Assembly: GCA_019359395.1 (NCBI GenBank)
Contig: JAHHHK010000013.1
Coordinates: 62,001 to 126,000 of the forward strand
Origin: Komarekiella atlantica HA4396-MV6
Lineage (GTDB): Bacteria; Cyanobacteriota; Cyanobacteriia; Cyanobacteriales; Nostocaceae
Length of the DNA stretch: 64,000 bases
Direction: 5' to 3'
How positions within the stretch are numbered: position 1 is the stretch's first letter; each line of letters opens with the position of its first letter. Position numbers and translations under genes: made by a program. Of this stretch, positions 26,241 through 62,108 are shown in pieces. The notes under the pieces were generated by a model. The model made no database searches, had not been told where the DNA came from, and worked only from the letters and a program-made list of their open reading frames with translations.

Positions 26241-27944
26241 ATGCAACCACCCATTACAATTGGCACTGTCCTGCAAAATCGTTATCGAATAGTTCAAATC
26301 CTTGGACAGGGAGGATTTGGTAGAACTTATCTCGCAGAAGATCAGAGGCGCTTTAACGAACTTTGCGCCATCAAAGAGTTGCTCTCAACGGTAACGGAAG
26401 CTTCTACTTGGGAAAAGGCGCAAGAGCTTTTTCACAGAGAAGCTGCTATTTTGTATCAGATAGAACACCCCCAAGTGCCGAAATTTAGGGAAAGATTTGA
26501 GCAAGACCAGCGCTTGTGTTTAGTGCAGGACTACGTTGCAGGGAAGACGTATCGAGATTTGCTGACTGAGCGCCAAGCTGTTAATCAAACTTTCACAGAA
26601 ACAGAAGTATTGCAGTTGATGCGCTCTCTGTTGCCAGTTTTAGAGCATATTCATAGTAGAGGAATTATTCACCGAGATATCTCGCCAGAGAATATTATTT
26701 TGCGAGATAGCGATGCTAAACCAGTGTTAATTGACTTTGGGGTGGTAAAAGAACTAGCAACACGATTGCAATCTCCAGATAGCATATTGCCAGTTACTAC
26801 TGTAGGAAAATTAGGCTATGCTCCAAGCGAGCAAATGCAAACAGGGCAAGCTTATCCTAGTAGTGACTTGTATGCACTAGCAGTCACAGCGATAGTTTTG
26901 CTGACTGGTAAAGAACCAAACGCTTTGTTTGATGAAAATCAACTAACTTGGACTTGGCAACGCTGGGTAAATGTGAATCCGAGATTTGCTACGGTATTAA
27001 ATCGCATGTTGAATCATTTACCGAGCGATCGCTTCCAAAGTGCCACTAGTGTAATCCAAGCATTGCAAGCAGATCAATCCAGTGTCTCTACTCCCGGTGT
27101 ATCCAGTTTGCAAACAATGGCTGTTGGTCGCGCCCCCAACCCAGTATCACCACCAGCTGCGTCAAATAAACCCGATCCTGTGATTCCATCCAGCCGTGCT
27201 AGCTCAGTCTTGGATAATCCACTGGCGATCGGGGCTATTGGCAGTGCTGTGGTAATATTAGCGGGATTTGGTTCTTGGGCGCTGGTCAGTTCTATCCGCA
27301 GTCAGTCAAATACTTCCTCAGAAACAGCACCACCACAAACTTTCCCTTCACCAGTGATTTCAGGTGGTACGACATTCACCTCTACACCTACACCTACTAG
27401 TGATGAACCTGTTATATCTAATAAGCGTCTCAGGCTGGGAGCATCTAACATAACCACGGTTGAAGATACCCTAAAAGCAAATCAAATCATCCAATACACA
27501 TTTTTTGGGCAAGAGGGAGCTAAGTTAACAACATTTATTGAGCAAGGAAGCGGTATTTTACTAACAGTATTAGATCCCAATCAGCAACCAATTGATAATA
27601 GCTCCCAGCAAGTAACATCCTATGACGGAACATTACCAGTTAGTGGTAGATACACTATTCAGTTAACTCTAGTTACGGGAGTTGCCGAAAGCAACTATAA
27701 CCTCAATGTGGCATTAGAAAAACCAGTTCAACCAACACCCACAGAGACATCAACGCCCATAGAGATACCCACGCCAATTTTTACTGAAACACCCACACCA
27801 ACGCCCATAGAAACACCAACACCCATAGAAACCCCCGCGCCAATTTTTACTGAGATACCTACACCAACTCCTACAACTGGTGCAGAACAAACTTTCCCGC
27901 CTGCGAATGTAACTCCCCAACCGTTTCCTGATCAAAGAAATTAA
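26241..27944 (+). CDS. Membrane-anchored Ser/Thr protein kinase with PPC-like sensor region
   Basis: 567 aa from ATG 26241. Kinase domain: glycine loop LGQGGFGRTY (about 21-30), catalytic Lys in CAIKEL, catalytic loop HRDISPEN (about 144-151), DFG at 165-167, APE-like region YAPSEQMQTGQAYPSSD. One transmembrane helix follows at about 326-348 (IGAIGSAVVILAGFGSWAL), then an outside region resembling a bacterial pre-peptidase C-terminal fold, then a Pro/Thr-rich tail of ETPTPIE-type repeats. All catalytic residues are present. The last base of its TAA is the first base of the bioD ATG, so the two genes are cotranscribed. Confidence 0.9.
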   Translation: MQPPITIGTVLQNRYRIVQILGQGGFGRTYLAEDQRRFNELCAIKELLSTVTEASTWEKAQELFHREAAILYQIEHPQVPKFRERFEQDQRLCLVQDYVAGKTYRDLLTERQAVNQTFTETEVLQLMRSLLPVLEHIHSRGIIHRDISPENIILRDSDAKPVLIDFGVVKELATRLQSPDSILPVTTVGKLGYAPSEQMQTGQAYPSSDLYALAVTAIVLLTGKEPNALFDENQLTWTWQRWVNVNPRFATVLNRMLNHLPSDRFQSATSVIQALQADQSSVSTPGVSSLQTMAVGRAPNPVSPPAASNKPDPVIPSSRASSVLDNPLAIGAIGSAVVILAGFGSWALVSSIRSQSNTSSETAPPQTFPSPVISGGTTFTSTPTPTSDEPVISNKRLRLGASNITTVEDTLKANQIIQYTFFGQEGAKLTTFIEQGSGILLTVLDPNQQPIDNSSQQVTSYDGTLPVSGRYTIQLTLVTGVAESNYNLNVALEKPVQPTPTETSTPIEIPTPIFTETPTPTPIETPTPIETPAPIFTEIPTPTPTTGAEQTFPPANVTPQPFPDQRN

Positions 27945-30821: not shown

Positions 30822-32024
30822 ATGAGTTTTGATTATTTTAGAAGCAATGAAGGCACTTCTGCAAACAACAACCGTCAGAGCTTACTTGCTAGCGGTTGGC
30901 GACCGTTTCATCGAGAATTAGACTGGGGATTTTTGTGGCAACTATTGTATAGTGATACGCGCGAATTAAGTCAAAAAGGTTTAAATTTAGCAAGTACCGT
31001 TGCTGATACTTTGGGGCGGACTAATTACGCTTGGTGGGCTAATTTATTAAATATTGTATCTGATAACACGCGCTACGAAGTTGAAAAATTTTGGAGTTAC
31101 ATTACACCTGATCCTCTGTCACCAGATCATCGATACAAAGATGTTTTAAGTACAGAAACGCCTATTGTACAATTTGTCAGCCGGAGTAGCATTCCTATTG
31201 ATTACGTTCTTAACCGACTGCAAGAAATTACTGTTTTACGAGTTTTAAAACTATTGGGACGTCCAGACATTATTACTCAGTATTACTCAGAAAGGGATTT
31301 TTATTTTCCTGTAGAGAGATTTGTTAACTGGGAACGTCTAGATGTTATCAACACTGTTTATGCCTACTGGTCTAAATATGACATTTGGCTACAAATTGAC
31401 CCCTACGATCGCGGACGGCGACAGTATACTTTAATGGCGACAAATATCACGCCATTAATTAACAAGGCAACTTACGACTTAGCAATAATGCTGAGTGGAT
31501 ATCAAAGTCGTGTAGGCAAAGTTCACAGCCAATTTCCTATTCGCACATTCCCGAAAGATATTCAGGATTTTACTGACTTAGTGCAGCAAGCAGTTCTTAA
31601 TCAAAACCAGTTAGCGGTTGTTGTAAATGGTGAACCAGGTACGGGTAAAACTGCATGGACACAGGCAGTAGCAAAAGAAATTCTTGTACCTTTAGGATAT
31701 GTAATTTTTATTCTAGATCATGATGCGATCGCAAACTTTGTACCACCAATATATTTAGAGCGTATTTGTATTGTAATTAATGAAGCTGATAATTTAGCAC
31801 AAAATCGTGCTTCTGAAGTGGCTCAATACAATAACAAAACAGAACATATTCTGAGTTTACTGGACGGTACTTTGTACCAAAGTGTAATTGATGATTCTGG
31901 AATTCAGATAAAGCAGCGTTTGGTTATTTTGATGACTTGTAACACTACTGAAAGGTTAGATCCAGCGATGTTACGTAAAGGCAGGGTAGATTTAATGTAT
32001 GAATTTGTGCAGCGATTTGTATAA
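30822..32024 (+). CDS. AAA+ ATPase with unassigned N-terminal domain (first of a pair)
   Basis: 400 aa. Residues 1-240 are a Trp/Tyr-rich region of unknown fold (WRPFHRELDWGFLWQLLYSD and LDVINTVYAYWSKYDIWLQI). The AAA+ module occupies about 245-400: Walker A GEPGTGKT (270-277), Walker B region ICIVINEADN (315-324), sensor/arginine region LMTCNTTERLDPAMLRKGRVD, reminiscent of Bcs1-type proteins. The Walker B reads N-E rather than D/E-D, a departure from the family. The ORF stops right after the large ATPase subdomain, so no lid or C-terminal domain is present. A second AAA+ gene follows on the same strand after 443 bases. Function unknown. Confidence 0.8.
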   Translation: MSFDYFRSNEGTSANNNRQSLLASGWRPFHRELDWGFLWQLLYSDTRELSQKGLNLASTVADTLGRTNYAWWANLLNIVSDNTRYEVEKFWSYITPDPLSPDHRYKDVLSTETPIVQFVSRSSIPIDYVLNRLQEITVLRVLKLLGRPDIITQYYSERDFYFPVERFVNWERLDVINTVYAYWSKYDIWLQIDPYDRGRRQYTLMATNITPLINKATYDLAIMLSGYQSRVGKVHSQFPIRTFPKDIQDFTDLVQQAVLNQNQLAVVVNGEPGTGKTAWTQAVAKEILVPLGYVIFILDHDAIANFVPPIYLERICIVINEADNLAQNRASEVAQYNNKTEHILSLLDGTLYQSVIDDSGIQIKQRLVILMTCNTTERLDPAMLRKGRVDLMYEFVQRFV

Positions 32025-32467
32025 AATTAACCTGTAGTGTAAAGTCTATGTTTGGAAATAAAACTGTAGATGTAGATAAATAGAGGCTTTTCGCAGAGTA
32101 CACGATCATTAATAGGTCTATCGTACGAGTATTTGAAAATAAGAATTTTAAGGTTCACGCAGAGAGAAGTTTGAGCGGCGGTTTCCGCCGTTGGCGCAGC
32201 CCGCCGTAGGCATCAAAACTTCTCCCAAGGGGAGACGCCAAAGGCGAACGGTGGGCGCAGAGGCGCAGAGAGTAACGAGAAATTTCTCTGTTTGGCAGTT
32301 GATAATCTGATTCATGTAAGAGGTCTAATGTGAATATGAGCGTAGAGGTTACTGCTTAGGACTTGGGTAATTTTTAATTGATTATCTGGAATTTGTTCGA
32401 GATGTATTGTAGCTAATTACTAATATCAGGATTCCTGCATTACTACCACCAAAGAGAATAAATCACT
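32025..32467. other. Repeat-rich spacer between the two AAA+ genes
   Basis: 443 bases without a gene. It contains the palindrome gagcggcggtttccgccg (32173-32190), related to one at 59053-59077, a gcagaggcgcagagag patch, and a solo end tgtaagaggtcta (32315-32327) differing by one base from the terminal repeat of the MITE at 17802. It appears to be a pile of degraded repeats. Confidence 0.55.
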
Positions 32468-33697
32468 GTGAAAATTCAACAATTGATTACAGAAGCGCTG
32501 AGCTTACCTAATAGCGCGATCGCCTACCACGTTAGTCAAGAATTAGCAGCAATTTATCCGAAAAAAGCACTGCTAGAAGGTAGTGATGCTTCGTTTAATT
32601 TAGAGAACTATGCTGAGGCAAACCTTTGTAGTATTCAATATGACGCTTATATCCATAACCAGATTATCACTGGTTGGAATGGAATGGACAACAAGGTTTA
32701 TGAATATACAGAAAATGCCAGCTTTGAAGTCACATGGCAAAAAGAGAAATTGGATGTACTCTTAATGAGTTGGCAGGAGGGTTATTGTAAAACTCGTTAT
32801 TACTGGGTTTTGGCTGATAGCAAAGAGTTAGCTGAACATTTTTTTGCTGCTGTTTGTGAATGGAACTCGGAAATCCGTGATGAAGTTTTGGTTTTTGAAG
32901 ATGGTTACTGGAATAAAAATCCAGACCTTTTTCAATCAATTAAAGGTGCAAATTTTGAGAATCTGATTTTGCATGGTACTCTCAAACAGGATATTCAAGA
33001 TGACCTGATAAACTTCTTTGCCTGCCGAGAAACTTACGCAGATTATGGTGTGCCTTGGAAGCGCGGTATTTTGCTAATTGGCTCACCGGGAAATGGCAAA
33101 ACTCACACGATAAAAGCATTGATTAATCAAATGCAGCAGCCTTGTTTGTATGTAAAAAGTTTCAAGTCTGAGTATGCTACTGATAGTGAAAATATGCGGA
33201 GAGTATTTAAACAAGCACGGCAGTCTGCGCCTTGTATTTTGATATTAGAAGATATCGATTCTCTGTTGACTGACGAAAATCGTTCTTTCTTTTTGAATGA
33301 ACTTGATGGCTTTGCCTTGAACCAGGGGATTGTCACCATTGCTAGTACTAATCATCCAGAACGTTTAGATGCGGCAATTTGCGATCGCCCCAGCCGTTTT
33401 GACCGCAAGTATCACTTTGAATTACCAGAGATGCTCGAAAGAGAAGCTTATATCGCTTTGTGGAACAATAAACTGAAAACTACAATGCGCTTATCTGACG
33501 AGGCCTTGAGCCAGATGGTTGCACTGACAGATGGCTTCTCCTTCGCGTACCTCAAAGAACTATTTATCTCGTCGATGATTCGCTGGATGGGAGTAATGGA
33601 ACCTGGTGCGATGGAGAAAATTATGCTTTCTCAAGTTGCAGTTTTACGAGAACAAATGAGTAGCACAACTGTTAGCGGCGAAGGTTTAGAAAAGTAA
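32468..33697 (+). CDS. AAA+ ATPase with unassigned N-terminal domain (second of a pair)
   Basis: 409 aa from GTG 32468. The N-terminal 165 residues are unassigned. AAA+ core: Walker A GSPGNGKT (205-212), complete Walker B ILILEDID (257-264), sensor ASTNHPERLDAA, arginines in CDRPSRFDRKYHFELP, then a helical lid (about 322-400). It is a fully equipped classic AAA domain resembling the FtsH/Bcs1/proteasomal-ATPase grade, without protease or transmembrane segment. The GNAT gene follows after one base, so they form an operon. Target unknown. Confidence 0.85.
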   Translation: MKIQQLITEALSLPNSAIAYHVSQELAAIYPKKALLEGSDASFNLENYAEANLCSIQYDAYIHNQIITGWNGMDNKVYEYTENASFEVTWQKEKLDVLLMSWQEGYCKTRYYWVLADSKELAEHFFAAVCEWNSEIRDEVLVFEDGYWNKNPDLFQSIKGANFENLILHGTLKQDIQDDLINFFACRETYADYGVPWKRGILLIGSPGNGKTHTIKALINQMQQPCLYVKSFKSEYATDSENMRRVFKQARQSAPCILILEDIDSLLTDENRSFFLNELDGFALNQGIVTIASTNHPERLDAAICDRPSRFDRKYHFELPEMLEREAYIALWNNKLKTTMRLSDEALSQMVALTDGFSFAYLKELFISSMIRWMGVMEPGAMEKIMLSQVAVLREQMSSTTVSGEGLEK

Positions 33698-33698
33698 A

Positions 33699-34535
33699 AT
33701 GAAAGTTCATCAATTTCAAGATGCAAGTCAATTTTACGCACGGGTGAAAGACTACTTGCTGAGTCAGGAAGCATTGCATAACCTGCTGCTGGCACTAAGC
33801 AACGCTTTGATTCAAAATCCTGAACGCTTCAAAGAACAGCCTTATTTGGCAACCGTGGATGCAGATGATGATATCGTAGCCGTAGCTTTGAGAACACCAC
33901 CTAGAAATTTAGTGCTGTCCCAGATTAAAGATTTGCAGGCGGTGGAGCTACTTGCTCAAGATTTATATCTCTCCTGCAATTCTCTACCAGGAGTAATGGC
34001 TCCCATAGATGAGGCTCAAGTATTTGCTTTGGTGTGGCGATCGCTAACTAGTCAATCTTACGAAATGAAGATGGACTTACGTACCTTTAAACTGGAAAAG
34101 GTACAGATGATTGTCTCAATCACAGGTTATTTAAGACAGGCTACAGAAGGAGACAAAGAACTTCTCAAAAACTGGAATGAAGCTTTTGCACTCGAAGCAT
34201 TGGGCAAAATTGAGACAGATCCAGAACACTGGGCTGAACGGGTGTTGCAGCAAGGTTATGCTTACCTTTGGCAAGATGAAGTTCCGGTTTCAATAGCTTG
34301 TCGTGGCAGCTTCACACCCAACGGTGTGGGGGTGAATATGGTGTACACGCCTCCAGAGTACCGCCGGAAAGGCTACGCCAGTGCTTGCGTGGCAGCGTTA
34401 AGTCAGACTTTACTGAATCAGGGAAATCAATTCTGCTTTTTATTCACGGACTTGGCAAACCCAACTTCCAATCACATTTATCAAAAGATTGGCTACCAAC
34501 CAGTAGGTGATTGGCAGCAATACTCTTTCGTTTAA
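33699..34535 (+). CDS. GNAT-family N-acetyltransferase
   Basis: 278 aa. The C-terminal half carries the acetyl-CoA-binding GNAT signature VYTPPEYRRKGYASACVAAL (about 208-227) and the closing NHIYQKIGYQPVGDW. The N-terminal half resembles the two-lobed GNAT members with a regulatory lobe. It starts one base after the AAA+ gene stop, strongly suggesting cotranslation. The acceptor is unknown; its tight linkage to the AAA+ ATPase may mean it modifies the same target. Confidence 0.85.
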   Translation: MKVHQFQDASQFYARVKDYLLSQEALHNLLLALSNALIQNPERFKEQPYLATVDADDDIVAVALRTPPRNLVLSQIKDLQAVELLAQDLYLSCNSLPGVMAPIDEAQVFALVWRSLTSQSYEMKMDLRTFKLEKVQMIVSITGYLRQATEGDKELLKNWNEAFALEALGKIETDPEHWAERVLQQGYAYLWQDEVPVSIACRGSFTPNGVGVNMVYTPPEYRRKGYASACVAALSQTLLNQGNQFCFLFTDLANPTSNHIYQKIGYQPVGDWQQYSFV

Positions 34536-34569
34536 GAATAAAAAGCAAACATCTTTAACATTGCCATCG

Positions 34570-35535
34570 ATGTCTCAGCCTAACTCCGTCACCATAACCG
34601 ATGTGCAAGCAGCGCATGAGCGGCTTTTGGGTATTGCTCATCGCACACCTGTGTTAACTTCCAGAATCGTCAATGATCGCACCCATAGTCAAGTGTTTTT
34701 TAAGTGCGAAAATTTTCAACGCACAGGAGCCTTCAAATTTAGAGGTGCGTACAATGCACTTTTGCAACTATCCGCAGCACAAAAACAAAAAGGCGTGATT
34801 ACTTATTCATCGGGGAATCATGCTCAAGCGATCGCCTTAGCTGGAAAGCTGCTAAATATTCCCGCTACAATTGTCATGCCTGACGATGCTCCCACAGTCA
34901 AGCAAATTGCTACTCGCGGTTATGGTGCTGAGGTGATTCTCTACAATCGCCAATCAACAAACCGGGAAGAATTAGCTCAAAGTTTAGCACGCGAGCGCGC
35001 TCTCACACTTATTCCTCCTTACGATCATCTGCATGTAGTCGCGGGACAGGGGACAACTGCTTTAGAACTGATTGCAGAAGTTGGTCAACTCGACTTACTA
35101 TTAGTTTGCTGTGGCGGTGGCGGATTACTTTCCGGTTGTGCGATCGCAACCAAAGCACTTTTACCCAATTGTAAAGTAATTGGCGTAGAACCAGAACTAG
35201 CCGACGATGCTACCCGTTCCTTTTACAGCAAAACCCTACAAACCGTCAAAAATCCTGATACCATTGCCGATGGCGCTCGTACTCCCAACCTTGGTAAGAT
35301 TACTTTTCCCTTAGTACTGCATTACGTCGATGATATGGTGACAGTTTCGGAAGAAGCGATTATTCGCACTATGTTTTTTTTGTGGGAACGCCTCAAAATT
35401 GTAGTTGAACCCACTGGCGCATTAGCAGCAGCAGCTTTATTAGAAGGTGTAGTTAAAGCACCGCACGCAAACATTGGTGTAATCATCAGCGGTGGAAATG
35501 TAGATTTGGCACAAATTGGTAAATTATTTTCCTGA
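34570..35535 (+). CDS. Threonine/serine dehydratase (PLP-dependent)
   Basis: 321 aa from ATG 34570 (MSQPNSVTITDVQAAHERL); a longer frame overlapping the GNAT gene is unlikely. Fold-type II PLP enzyme: PLP-lysine in TGAFKFRGAYNAL, SSGNHAQAIAL phosphate/substrate loop, and the glycine loop CCGGGGLLSGCA. It lacks the C-terminal ACT-like regulatory domain of biosynthetic IlvA, so it resembles catabolic threonine deaminase or serine racemase. It lies 34 bases after the GNAT gene and may share its transcript. Confidence 0.9.
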   Translation: MSQPNSVTITDVQAAHERLLGIAHRTPVLTSRIVNDRTHSQVFFKCENFQRTGAFKFRGAYNALLQLSAAQKQKGVITYSSGNHAQAIALAGKLLNIPATIVMPDDAPTVKQIATRGYGAEVILYNRQSTNREELAQSLARERALTLIPPYDHLHVVAGQGTTALELIAEVGQLDLLLVCCGGGGLLSGCAIATKALLPNCKVIGVEPELADDATRSFYSKTLQTVKNPDTIADGARTPNLGKITFPLVLHYVDDMVTVSEEAIIRTMFFLWERLKIVVEPTGALAAAALLEGVVKAPHANIGVIISGGNVDLAQIGKLFS

Positions 35536-38458: not shown

Positions 38459-38582
38459 GCAATCACTCTATAAACCCTAAAAATTAGCTGAAAGAGCAGT
38501 AAGTCAAGGGTTTTTGCTCCAATCTTTACATATGTTAACATTGTATACTTGGCTTGAGCATGTATGTTTTAGTATTACCCTT

Positions 38583-39899
38583 ATGAAGACTGTTCTCAAA
38601 TCGAATCAAGAGCAAGTCACTCGGTTGTTTTCTCACCTCGAATTTGATGGAAATAAGCTAAATCATCAACCGGGTAGTGTATTAGGGAGTACTGCGCTGA
38701 TTGCTGGAACCACGGTTGGGGCTGGTATTCTCGCCCTACCTGCGGTTACTCTGCCATCTGGAATTTTGCCATCCACAGCCCTGCTGATTGCTGTTTGGCT
38801 CTACGCTTTAGTCTCAGGTTTGTTAATTGCAGAAGTGACCTTGAATGCAATGCATTTAGAGGGGCGGCAGAGTGTAGGTTTGTTAGCAATTGTTCAGAAG
38901 ACCCTTGGTAAGCTGGGAGCGCGAATTGCTGGCGGCGCTTATCTATTTATGCACTATGCTCTACTGGTAGCATATATCACCCAAGGTGGAGAAATTTTAG
39001 TATCTGCGGTTGCAAAAGTCTGGGGTGTGCAGAACGTTTTGCCTATGTGGGTGGGGACAACGACTTTCACTCTCCTATTTGGCGGCATTATGTATCTTGG
39101 GCGAGAAAAGTTTATTGAGAAATTAAACAGCGCCTTTGTGGGGATTGTGATTGTTTCATTCTTGGGACTATTACTGCTGGGAGGAGGGCAAGTTAAAAGT
39201 GCCCAATTTTTATTTCAGAACTGGAGTGCCCTTGGTAGCGCTGTTTCAGTCATGTGTGTCGCCCTGTTTTACCATAACGTTGTGCCTGTCGTTGTTACCC
39301 AATTAGAAGGAGATGTCCACAAGATTCGTAATTCCATCGTCATTGGTTCTGCAATTCCTTTAATCATGTTCTTAGCGTGGAATGCTGTGATTTTGGGAAG
39401 TGTCAGTTCCGATGTACTACAAGGTATTTCTGATGGCAGAACCGTTTTTGATCCACTGCAAATTTTGCGAGCTGGTGGTGCAGGGGAATGGTTAGGAGTG
39501 CTAGTATCGATTTTCTCAGAGTTTGCGATCGTTACATCATTTATTGGATTTGTGTACGGGTTGCTAGATTTCTTCAAAGATATTTCTCTAATTACCCAAG
39601 GTGAATCTTCTAGTCGCTTACCTCTGTATTCGTTGGTTCTTTTCCCTCCTATGAGTCTTGGGACGCTTAATCCTAGCATCTTCTTTGCTGCCCTAGACTA
39701 CACTGGAACATTCAGTGTTTCAGTTTTAGGCGGGATTATTCCGGCGTTGATGAGTTGGAAGCAACGTCAAGAGCAGGAAAACTTAAATAGTGTGAATCAA
39801 CCACTTGTTCCTGGTGGTAAGGTAACACTCACCGTGATGATTGGAGTTGCATTAGCCTTAATAGTGAAACAAATTTTCTTAATCTACTATGGAATGTAA
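38583..39899 (+). CDS. Aromatic amino-acid permease (HAAAP/TyrP-like)
   Basis: 438 aa from ATG 38583, with about eleven transmembrane helices. The first helix carries the family signature STALIAGTTVGAGILALPAV; another conserved stretch is LFYHNVVPVVVTQLEGD. It is probably a proton-coupled importer of Tyr or Trp in the plasma membrane. A TTG-initiated upstream extension of 23 residues is less likely. Confidence 0.88.
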   Translation: MKTVLKSNQEQVTRLFSHLEFDGNKLNHQPGSVLGSTALIAGTTVGAGILALPAVTLPSGILPSTALLIAVWLYALVSGLLIAEVTLNAMHLEGRQSVGLLAIVQKTLGKLGARIAGGAYLFMHYALLVAYITQGGEILVSAVAKVWGVQNVLPMWVGTTTFTLLFGGIMYLGREKFIEKLNSAFVGIVIVSFLGLLLLGGGQVKSAQFLFQNWSALGSAVSVMCVALFYHNVVPVVVTQLEGDVHKIRNSIVIGSAIPLIMFLAWNAVILGSVSSDVLQGISDGRTVFDPLQILRAGGAGEWLGVLVSIFSEFAIVTSFIGFVYGLLDFFKDISLITQGESSSRLPLYSLVLFPPMSLGTLNPSIFFAALDYTGTFSVSVLGGIIPALMSWKQRQEQENLNSVNQPLVPGGKVTLTVMIGVALALIVKQIFLIYYGM

Positions 39900-40378
39900 A
39901 ACTATCAAACAACTTGGTAATGATACCTGACGACGAGTAAACTTCAAAAGACTGGCATCATAAATAGTTCTCGCTAATTCAAAATTAGCAAACATCTGCG
40001 CCTTCAACCAGATCGTATTGGTATTCAACTAACTGAATATCTAGACATGATTTAAGTCTCTAGAGGTTTTTAAGTAGATATTTTTGTTGATTTTTTATAC
40101 AGGCTTCAATATAGTATGTAATCGAGCAAACTCAATGTTTGTACAGGGTTTACTATTATATGTAATAACATAGATATTTTAAGTAACGATGCTCAAAGCC
40201 CTCAAAACCGAAGCAATAAACTCTAAATACTAAATAGTAAAAGTGTCTATAAGGTTGGATCTCAGAGTTCGAGAAAGGAGACTGAGTTTTCTTGATATTT
40301 AACAGCTATATCTTTCGATAGAAGGAAAATAATATTGTAATTAATAGGCTAGATATAAAGTCTTTGTAGAATAAATTT
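39900..40378. other. Intergenic region before the GlsB-like gene
   Basis: 479 AT-rich bases. The promoter of the small membrane-protein gene must lie here. No RNA gene or strong hairpin was seen. Confidence 0.4.
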
Positions 40379-52564: not shown

Positions 52565-52642
52565 CACCCTTGTTTACTCACCATAAAGCTAAGTTATCAG
52601 CTCATTAGCATAGAAAAGGGCATTCTTGCTTTTTACTTTAAG

Positions 52643-52715
52643 TACCCCCAGGGGAATTCGAATCCCCGTTACCTCCGTGAAAGGGAGGTGTCCTAGGCCT
52701 CTAGACGATGGGGGC
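52643..52715 (-). tRNA. tRNA-Glu (anticodon UUC)
   Basis: 73-base cloverleaf on the minus strand: acceptor GCCCCCA / TGGGGGT plus discriminator A, D-arm GTCTAGAGGCCTAGGAC, anticodon arm CCTCC-CTTTCAC-GGAGG with anticodon TTC, T-arm GGGGA-TTCGAAT-TCCCC. CCA is not encoded. In cyanobacteria this tRNA also donates Glu for tetrapyrrole (haem, chlorophyll) synthesis. Confidence 0.97.
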
Positions 52716-61983: not shown

Positions 61984-62108
61984 GTTTCCCCTTAAAGATT
62001 TTGACGCTCAACACAGCTAATAAAGCGATTCTCAATCTCCATGCTGCTAATTACTAATGGCTCATTGTCTTTTGTCATTAGCGATTAGCCAAAGTCTAAA
62101 ATAGCCCT

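Follow-up and report, generated by a model that had tools for sequence, protein, structure and literature searches.

The window analysed here, a stretch of 64,000 nucleotides from contig JAHHHK010000013.1 of the cyanobacterium Komarekiella atlantica HA4396-MV6 (forward-strand positions 62,001 to 126,000), carries three consecutive genes, AAA1, AAA2 and GNAT, which encode two AAA+ ATPases and an acetyltransferase (Table 1; all coordinates are those of the window). A sequence-only reading of this DNA had picked out the three open reading frames (ORFs), and we confirmed that they are real, all on the plus strand and at the positions proposed, with a single base (33698) lying between the stop of AAA2 and the start of GNAT, as it had noted. 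Comparison with other genomes suggests that the three genes may belong to a chromosomal neighbourhood built round the gene for KptA/Tpt1, an NAD-dependent RNA 2'-phosphotransferase.

Table 1. Features of the locus and its surroundings, with positions in the window.
Feature	Position	Strand	Description
AAA1	30822..32024	+	AAA+ ATPase of 400 aa that ends without a lid; no Pfam match in the N-terminal domain; INEAD as Walker B
AAA1 Walker A, GEPGTGKTAW (residues 270-279)	31629..31658	+	Located by counting from the first base of the ORF
AAA1 Walker B, ERICIVINEADNL (residues 313-325)	31758..31796	+	NEAD in 60/60 members
AAA1-AAA2 gap	32025..32467	+	443 bp; holds ~220 bp missing from the close relatives L205 and L206
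AAA2	32468..33697	+	409-aa AAA+ ATPase, YjoB/Bcs1-type by sequence; GTG start
GNAT	33699..34535	+	278-aa acetyltransferase; starts one base past AAA2
PLP-dependent enzyme	34507..35535	+	Pyridoxal-phosphate (PLP)-dependent, Pfam PALP; next in the recurrent order; only a candidate member of the system
Permease-like gene	38514..39899	+	Stands before KptA in several relatives; in 18/80 AAA1 loci
KptA remnant	39960..40034	+	Matches KptA residues 1-29

The AAA1 family

The Pfam AAA model (PF00004) matches residues 267-395 of AAA1 (model positions 2-129 of 131) and the protein stops at 400, confirming the earlier observation that it ends right after the ATPase core. The C-terminal small (lid) domain is absent, and in an alignment of 60 Cyanobacteriales members, the window protein included, about five residues follow the Pfam core in every one. 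The last residue is the same as in the window protein in 58 members and one residue is added in the other two; a frameshift or truncation behind the short C-terminus was rejected, since all 60 proteins stop there. The departing Walker B had also been correctly observed, and the motif is NEAD, with asparagine in place of aspartate, throughout the alignment. Since they are common to all members, the lidless end and the INEAD motif are traits of the family.

The Walker A Lys and Thr, the Walker B Glu, the sensor-1 Asn and the Arg-finger residues of the RKGR motif are likewise invariant in the 60 members, so that AAA1 carries the hallmarks of an AAA+ protein. Because the change in Walker B is confined to its first acidic residue, nothing points to a loss of ATPase activity, and the proposal that AAA1 is an inactive regulatory or scaffold subunit was rejected on the same invariant catalytic residues. 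Membership of PF00004 holds despite the missing lid, as it rests on the core.

Judged by sequence, AAA1 fits none of the curated families scanned beyond its AAA core, and neither AAA1 nor AAA2 reaches the cut-off of any NCBIfam model that they matched. The two proteins have only the AAA core in common (112 columns, hhalign probability 96). A Foldseek search with the AlphaFold model of AAA1 (predicted local distance difference test score, pLDDT, 75) placed Bcs1 and YjoB at the top, with template modelling (TM) scores of only 0.30-0.40.

Linkage of AAA1 with KptA in Cyanobacteriales

Clustering of the neighbouring proteins in a first set of loci showed KptA to be the commonest partner of AAA1 (42 of 57 loci). 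With three further loci that had been fetched with KptA also in view (L181-L183), 45 of the 60 loci fetched, from 14 families, have a KptA on the same strand no more than 1 kb from AAA1, upstream in 37 and downstream in eight. Three genomes scored as having none (G002, G109 and G127) yet have KptA fragments beside AAA1 according to their coordinates, and in eight AAA1 genomes whose loci were not fetched the search coordinates put KptA 16-801 bp from AAA1 on the same strand in every case. On the AAA1 tree the downstream position of KptA needs four changes, at least two of them forced by the starred branches, which indicates that the adjacency of the two genes survived rearrangement.

The order set comprised 148 genomes, of which 67 have AAA1 (E < 1e-60), three AAA2 (E < 1e-100) and 14 GNAT (E < 1e-40). 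KptA (E ≤ 0.001, fragments included) was found in 59 of the 67 genomes with AAA1 versus 29 of the 81 without it (Fisher odds ratio 13, p 3e-11, uncorrected for phylogeny). Among 217 Nostocaceae genomes the numbers were 203 for AAA1 (E ≤ 1e-40), 51 for AAA2 (E ≤ 1e-60), 86 for GNAT (E ≤ 1e-40) and 131 for KptA (E ≤ 1e-20); just one of the 14 genomes without AAA1 has KptA, leaving by subtraction 130 of the 203 that have it. AAA1 is a near-core gene of Nostocaceae, and 37 of the 39 genomes with AAA1 in a phylum set of 234 belong to Cyanobacteriales. The recurrent linkage and the co-occurrence point to a chromosomal RNA-repair neighbourhood.

KptA exceeds its NCBIfam equivalog cut-off (279 bits, cut-off 239), and the one RNA ligase scanned from a family of the AAA1 loci exceeds that of TIGR02306 (158 against 151). 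Ligases of this DRB0094 type are present in 7 of the 60 loci, together with NUDIX enzymes (9), a family that we call F3 (24), ThiF-like proteins (22) and a protein with a vWA domain (17). In a second set of 80 named AAA1 loci, where counts are limited to the available flanks and several contigs end early, the ligase occurs six times (one fragment). A locus from another family (L100) reads AAA1-KptA-NUDIX-AAA2-F3-ThiF. In the window, no ligase remnant was among the best 25 matches shown, nor did the 920 bp that precede AAA1 yield one at E ≤ 0.05.

F3 (~280 aa; L137:8716-9570), usually followed by the ThiF-like E1, forms with it an undescribed pair near KptA-AAA1, and has no Pfam match at E ≤ 0.001 and no NCBIfam match at E ≤ 0.01. 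The vWA protein (488 aa in L122:10311-11777) matches the domain weakly, below the cut-off in the case of VWA_2, and a Ro60-like identity was not adopted, there being no PDB match at E ≤ 1. In four genomes (family f18, L164-L167) a gene that we take to be RtcB is found upstream of KptA. A 152-aa family beside AAA1 outside the order (L330:5287-5745) is also found near AAA1 in L122 and could be an older partner.

Arrangement of AAA1, AAA2 and GNAT

Among the 51 Nostocaceae genomes with AAA2, two lack AAA1, four have an AAA1 whose place is not listed and 45 could be scored. In 32 of the 45, spread over 12 genera, AAA2 follows AAA1 on the same strand at a distance of 104-1909 bp, and AAA1 stands just upstream of AAA2 in two of the four unlisted cases (L301 and L302, not L299 and L300). 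The triple AAA1-AAA2-GNAT occurs in 20 genomes, bearing out the co-occurrence on which the sequence-only reading depended, and in two further loci read directly: L302, whose AAA1 is split into two ORFs, and L301, whose full cluster runs AAA1-NUDIX-AAA2-GNAT-dehydratase-KptA on one strand within ~5.4 kb. KptA follows GNAT within 10 kb in 18 genomes, as against the 20 with the triple. The 80 named loci include 21 with AAA2 (one fragment), 26 with GNAT (several fragments) and 38 with the PALP-type enzyme (fragments counted), which in the window is presumably threonine/serine dehydratase-like.

Since AAA1 is found in 203 and AAA2 in only 51 of the 217 genomes, AAA1 does not need AAA2 and an obligate pair is unlikely. 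This distribution and the intact AAA1 residues speak against the active/inactive AAA+ pair envisaged by the sequence-only reading.

The AAA2 ATPase

AAA2 matches PF00004 over model positions 1-130 of 131, with about 90 residues following the core. Its Walker A, Walker B Glu, sensor-1 Asn and Arg finger are invariant in a 19-row alignment (A3), in agreement with the complete motifs attributed to it earlier. The best solved relative is Bacillus subtilis YjoB (7w42, 7w46), which aligns with residues 132-374 (E 1.3e-42; profile E 7.5e-54) and has the same ED form of Walker B (LEDID in AAA2). On this core AAA2 is a YjoB/Bcs1-type ATPase. It scored 89 of 600, 75 of 803 and 70 of 500 bits against the NCBIfam models of FtsH, CDC48 and PAN, below the cut-off in each case.

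Residues 1-131 of AAA2, by contrast, have no sequence match to YjoB. The AlphaFold model is weak (pLDDT 62.5), and the Foldseek search with it returned YjoB first (E 1e-15, TM 0.36-0.39) and Bcs1 next; the YjoB alignment covers ~413 columns at a TM score of 0.36 and a root-mean-square deviation of 13 Å on this weak model. The nearly whole-length match at low TM suggests that the N-terminal domain of AAA2 may be kin to that of YjoB. The earlier description of both N-terminal domains as lacking a recognised fold may thus not hold for AAA2; that of AAA1 has no Pfam match and no sequence match among the 60 PDB hits shown of 190.

Seven AAA2 copies (G503, G375, G474, G454, G409, G542 and G504) contain in-frame stops and the AAA1 of the same genomes has none, from which a repeated decay of AAA2 follows. 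The ~220-bp insert in the gap between AAA1 and AAA2 of the window, relative to L205 and L206, resembles an interspersed repeat. A hidden NUDIX remnant within this gap was considered and rejected, as neither NUDIX nor KptA gave a match there at E ≤ 0.05.

The GNAT acetyltransferase

GNAT exceeds the Pfam cut-offs of PF08445 (42.4 bits, cut-off 22.1) and PF00583 (36.1 bits, cut-off 20.7). Fifty-three matches were taken forward, one per genome, at 54% identity or more and some of them partial, with eight further rows excluded; in 40 of the 53, GNAT lies 3' of AAA1 or AAA2. The coordinate difference between AAA2 and GNAT is 5-20 in 11 genomes, the window included, measured from match end to match start and counting the stop codon. 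Three genomes (G024, G050 and G004) have GNAT homologues 1-167 bp after KptA.

One genome has a GNAT paralogue (46%; G000:C62:99053-99877) 466 bp downstream of a 626-aa gene, assumed here to be FtsH-like, with a match to the AAA1 core. An exonuclease with a match to KapD (3'-5') below the cut-off lies between GNAT and F3 near KptA in L192 (5411-5992), and other members of its family stand next to GNAT (L188) or KptA (L169, L170).

Loss of KptA and selection on the remaining genes

The window genome itself gave no protein match to KptA and no match at E ≤ 1 to PF01885, a profile that picked up four of 14 control genomes, three of them above the cut-off; KptA is thus missing from the very genome that holds the three genes. 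What is left is the remnant listed in Table 1, located between a 90-aa ORF and the preceding gene, which we take to be permease-like, and 65% identical to the KptA of G463, a congener with an intact KptA at this position. L206 shares the deletion of the window (87% identity over 613 bp spanning it) and L303 retains a different piece, residues 142-180, which puts the number of KptA losses in the genus at two or more.

Pairwise ratios of nonsynonymous to synonymous substitutions (dN/dS, Nei-Gojobori) were 0.04-0.07 for AAA1 and 0.05-0.15 for AAA2. Between the window and L206, both without KptA, the values were 0.069 for AAA1 (dS 0.295) and 0.151 for AAA2; AAA1 gave 0.041 against L204, and GNAT 0.217 against L205. 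This purifying selection after the loss of KptA indicates that AAA1 and AAA2 seem to be still useful without it.

Phage, plasmid and defence context

Searches of 50,697 phage records (E 1e-8) and 72,556 plasmid records (E 1e-10) gave no match to AAA1, and viral contigs gave one weak match. The AAA2 core has distant relatives among viral contigs (22, at 25-32% identity) and in a single uncultured phage (30%), and a Calothrix plasmid has a piece covering 38% of AAA2 at 73.5%. A mobile or viral origin of the genes accordingly has little support. With respect to the IetAS defence system, the AAA core of IetA resembles that of AAA2. However, AAA2 scored only 73.8 bits against the IetA model NF042959 (cut-off 510), and none of the five flanking proteins scanned is a subtilisin-type protease such as IetS.

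Other features of the window

Two direct repeats of 66 nt (27731-27862) lie in the Pro/Thr-rich C-terminal tail of a putative protein kinase, an identity that we assume for this gene. A tRNA-Glu (ttc) is located on the minus strand at 52642-52715.

Interpretation and alternative explanations

Our preferred explanation, to which we give a probability of roughly 45%, is that AAA1, AAA2 and GNAT belong to a chromosomal neighbourhood built round KptA/Tpt1 in Cyanobacteriales. At somewhat less than even odds as well, AAA1 and AAA2 would be remodelling ATPases that act on an RNA-processing or ribonucleoprotein (RNP) target, with KptA, the ligase and the NUDIX enzyme in the same pathway wherever they are present. 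KptA would strip RNA that is damaged, cleaved or modified of its 2'-phosphates, and the ADP-ribose by-product would be removed by the NUDIX enzyme. AAA1 and AAA2 would spend ATP on opening, loading or unloading a protein-RNA or protein complex serving these enzymes, and GNAT might acetylate and tune AAA2 or a target shared with it. A more specific version, bold and rather unlikely, holds that AAA1 is an AAA+ family without a lid of its own, in which a partner (KptA or AAA2) or the helical N-terminal domain completes the nucleotide pocket, ATP hydrolysis is gated by the bound RNA-repair enzyme or RNA, and 2'-phosphorylated RNA is delivered to KptA.

A number of observations weigh against a KptA-centred role. 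AAA1 (203 genomes) far outnumbers KptA (131) in Nostocaceae, and the seven Nostocaceae loci of the order-wide set, the window among them, all lack a KptA at 1 kb or less from AAA1. KptA is present in just 20 of the 80 named loci (two partial, within the available flanks), is not near AAA1 in the two loci fetched outside the order (L330 and L331), and occurs without AAA1 in 29 genomes. GNAT is near AAA1 in only one of the 60 order-wide loci, that of the window, and KptA is near GNAT in just 3 of 13 loci fetched outside Nostocaceae. AAA2 lies away from AAA1 in 13 of the 45 scored genomes and in L299 and L300, mostly beside unrelated genes. The N-terminal domain of AAA1 is not covered by any of the 60 PDB matches shown, of 190, which all fall on the AAA core. 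Finally, action of the ATPases on RNA or RNP and the modification proposed for GNAT are inferred. Because AAA1 is under selection where KptA is gone and occurs in KptA-less loci outside the order, it should have a client of its own that exists independently of KptA.

In the principal alternative, in our estimate less probable, AAA2, and perhaps AAA1, would be a YjoB/Bcs1-like chaperone for one or a few client proteins, with KptA and the other neighbours as passengers of the gene order. Both sequence and Foldseek make YjoB the closest relative of AAA2 with a solved structure, Bcs1 and YjoB head the (low-scoring) Foldseek list of AAA1, and AAA1 has been retained after the loss of KptA and without an adjoining KptA outside the order; PMC3498285 lists yjoB among the core sigma-W genes of B. 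subtilis. However, KptA adjoins AAA1 in 14 families and in both orders, and also adjoins relatives of GNAT and AAA2 in other families, a repeated pattern not expected of passengers. The hetero-oligomer suggested by the sequence-only reading, in which a regulatory AAA1 would join an AAA2 motor, is improbable: the adjacency of the two genes in 32 of 45 genomes, their linkage in a second family (L100) and the lidless end of AAA1 are in its favour, but it fits poorly with the unequal distribution of the two genes, the invariant catalytic residues of AAA1 and a similarity confined to the AAA core.

The loss of KptA could also mean that the locus is a decaying remnant from which the three genes are being lost, as the KptA remnant itself and the in-frame stops in 7 of the 51 AAA2 copies might suggest, together with G465, which lacks GNAT at E ≤ 1e-40, and G466, which lacks AAA1, GNAT and KptA. 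Yet the reading frames of the window are intact, the dN/dS values (AAA1 0.04-0.07, AAA2 0.05-0.15, GNAT 0.22) point the other way, and AAA1 and AAA2 were kept past the deletion shared with L206; we regard decay of the whole locus as quite improbable, though it may apply to GNAT by itself. Least likely of all is a role in anti-phage defence or another kind of conflict. Such conflicts are known to be fought over RNA repair (PMC9503650), AAA2 matches IetA models below their cut-off, and its relatives in viral contigs, the uncultured phage and the Calothrix plasmid are compatible with it. The conflict machine proposed by the sequence-only reading nevertheless finds little support, given a near-core AAA1 that was not found in the plasmid and phage collections, a score far below the IetA cut-off and no subtilisin-type partner among the five flanking proteins scanned.

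Comparison with known systems and significance

Repair systems centred on KptA are a known kind. The KptA/Tpt1 RNA-repair systems described in PMC9503650 also combine KptA with RNA ligase and NUDIX functions; KptA there removes 2'-phosphates in an NAD+-dependent manner, and NUDIX is proposed to process the ADP-ribose product. The cyanobacterial clusters differ in being chromosomal and not viral, and in having a lidless AAA+ protein as the steadiest neighbour, plus a YjoB-type AAA+ protein and a GNAT; an AAA+ partner is not named in section 3.7.3 of that account. The counterpart of the Deinococcus radiodurans DRB0094-type ligase is confined to a minority of the AAA1 loci (7/60 and 6/80) and was not detected in the window. 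Mitochondrial Bcs1 is among the top Foldseek matches of both AAA+ models, with TM scores (query) of just 0.30-0.37, and AAA1, by contrast, stops ahead of the lid. In the literature on KptA, RNA repair and YjoB we found no description of an AAA1-AAA2-GNAT-KptA cluster among the titles and abstract openings of the matches listed, nor, in these sources, of a lidless AAA+ as the steadiest neighbour together with a YjoB-type ATPase and a GNAT; an earlier description is possible in Burroughs and Aravind 2016 (NAR).

The substrate of KptA in Escherichia coli is unclear and deletion of kptA has no growth effect there (PMC6333775), and archaeal KptA is an eraser of tRNA Up47 (PMC9095486). AAA1 is notable for being near-core in Nostocaceae, for its unusual lidless architecture and for fitting no curated family scanned beyond the AAA core. 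A machine in which the lid of AAA1 is supplied in trans would, if true, be the missing physiological context of bacterial Tpt1. Although the genome of K. atlantica HA4396-MV6 has lost its own KptA, the cluster allows one to ask what KptA does in bacteria. Why bacteria keep Tpt1/KptA is a riddle, and an ATPase neighbour in 14 cyanobacterial families gives it a genetic and biochemical handle.

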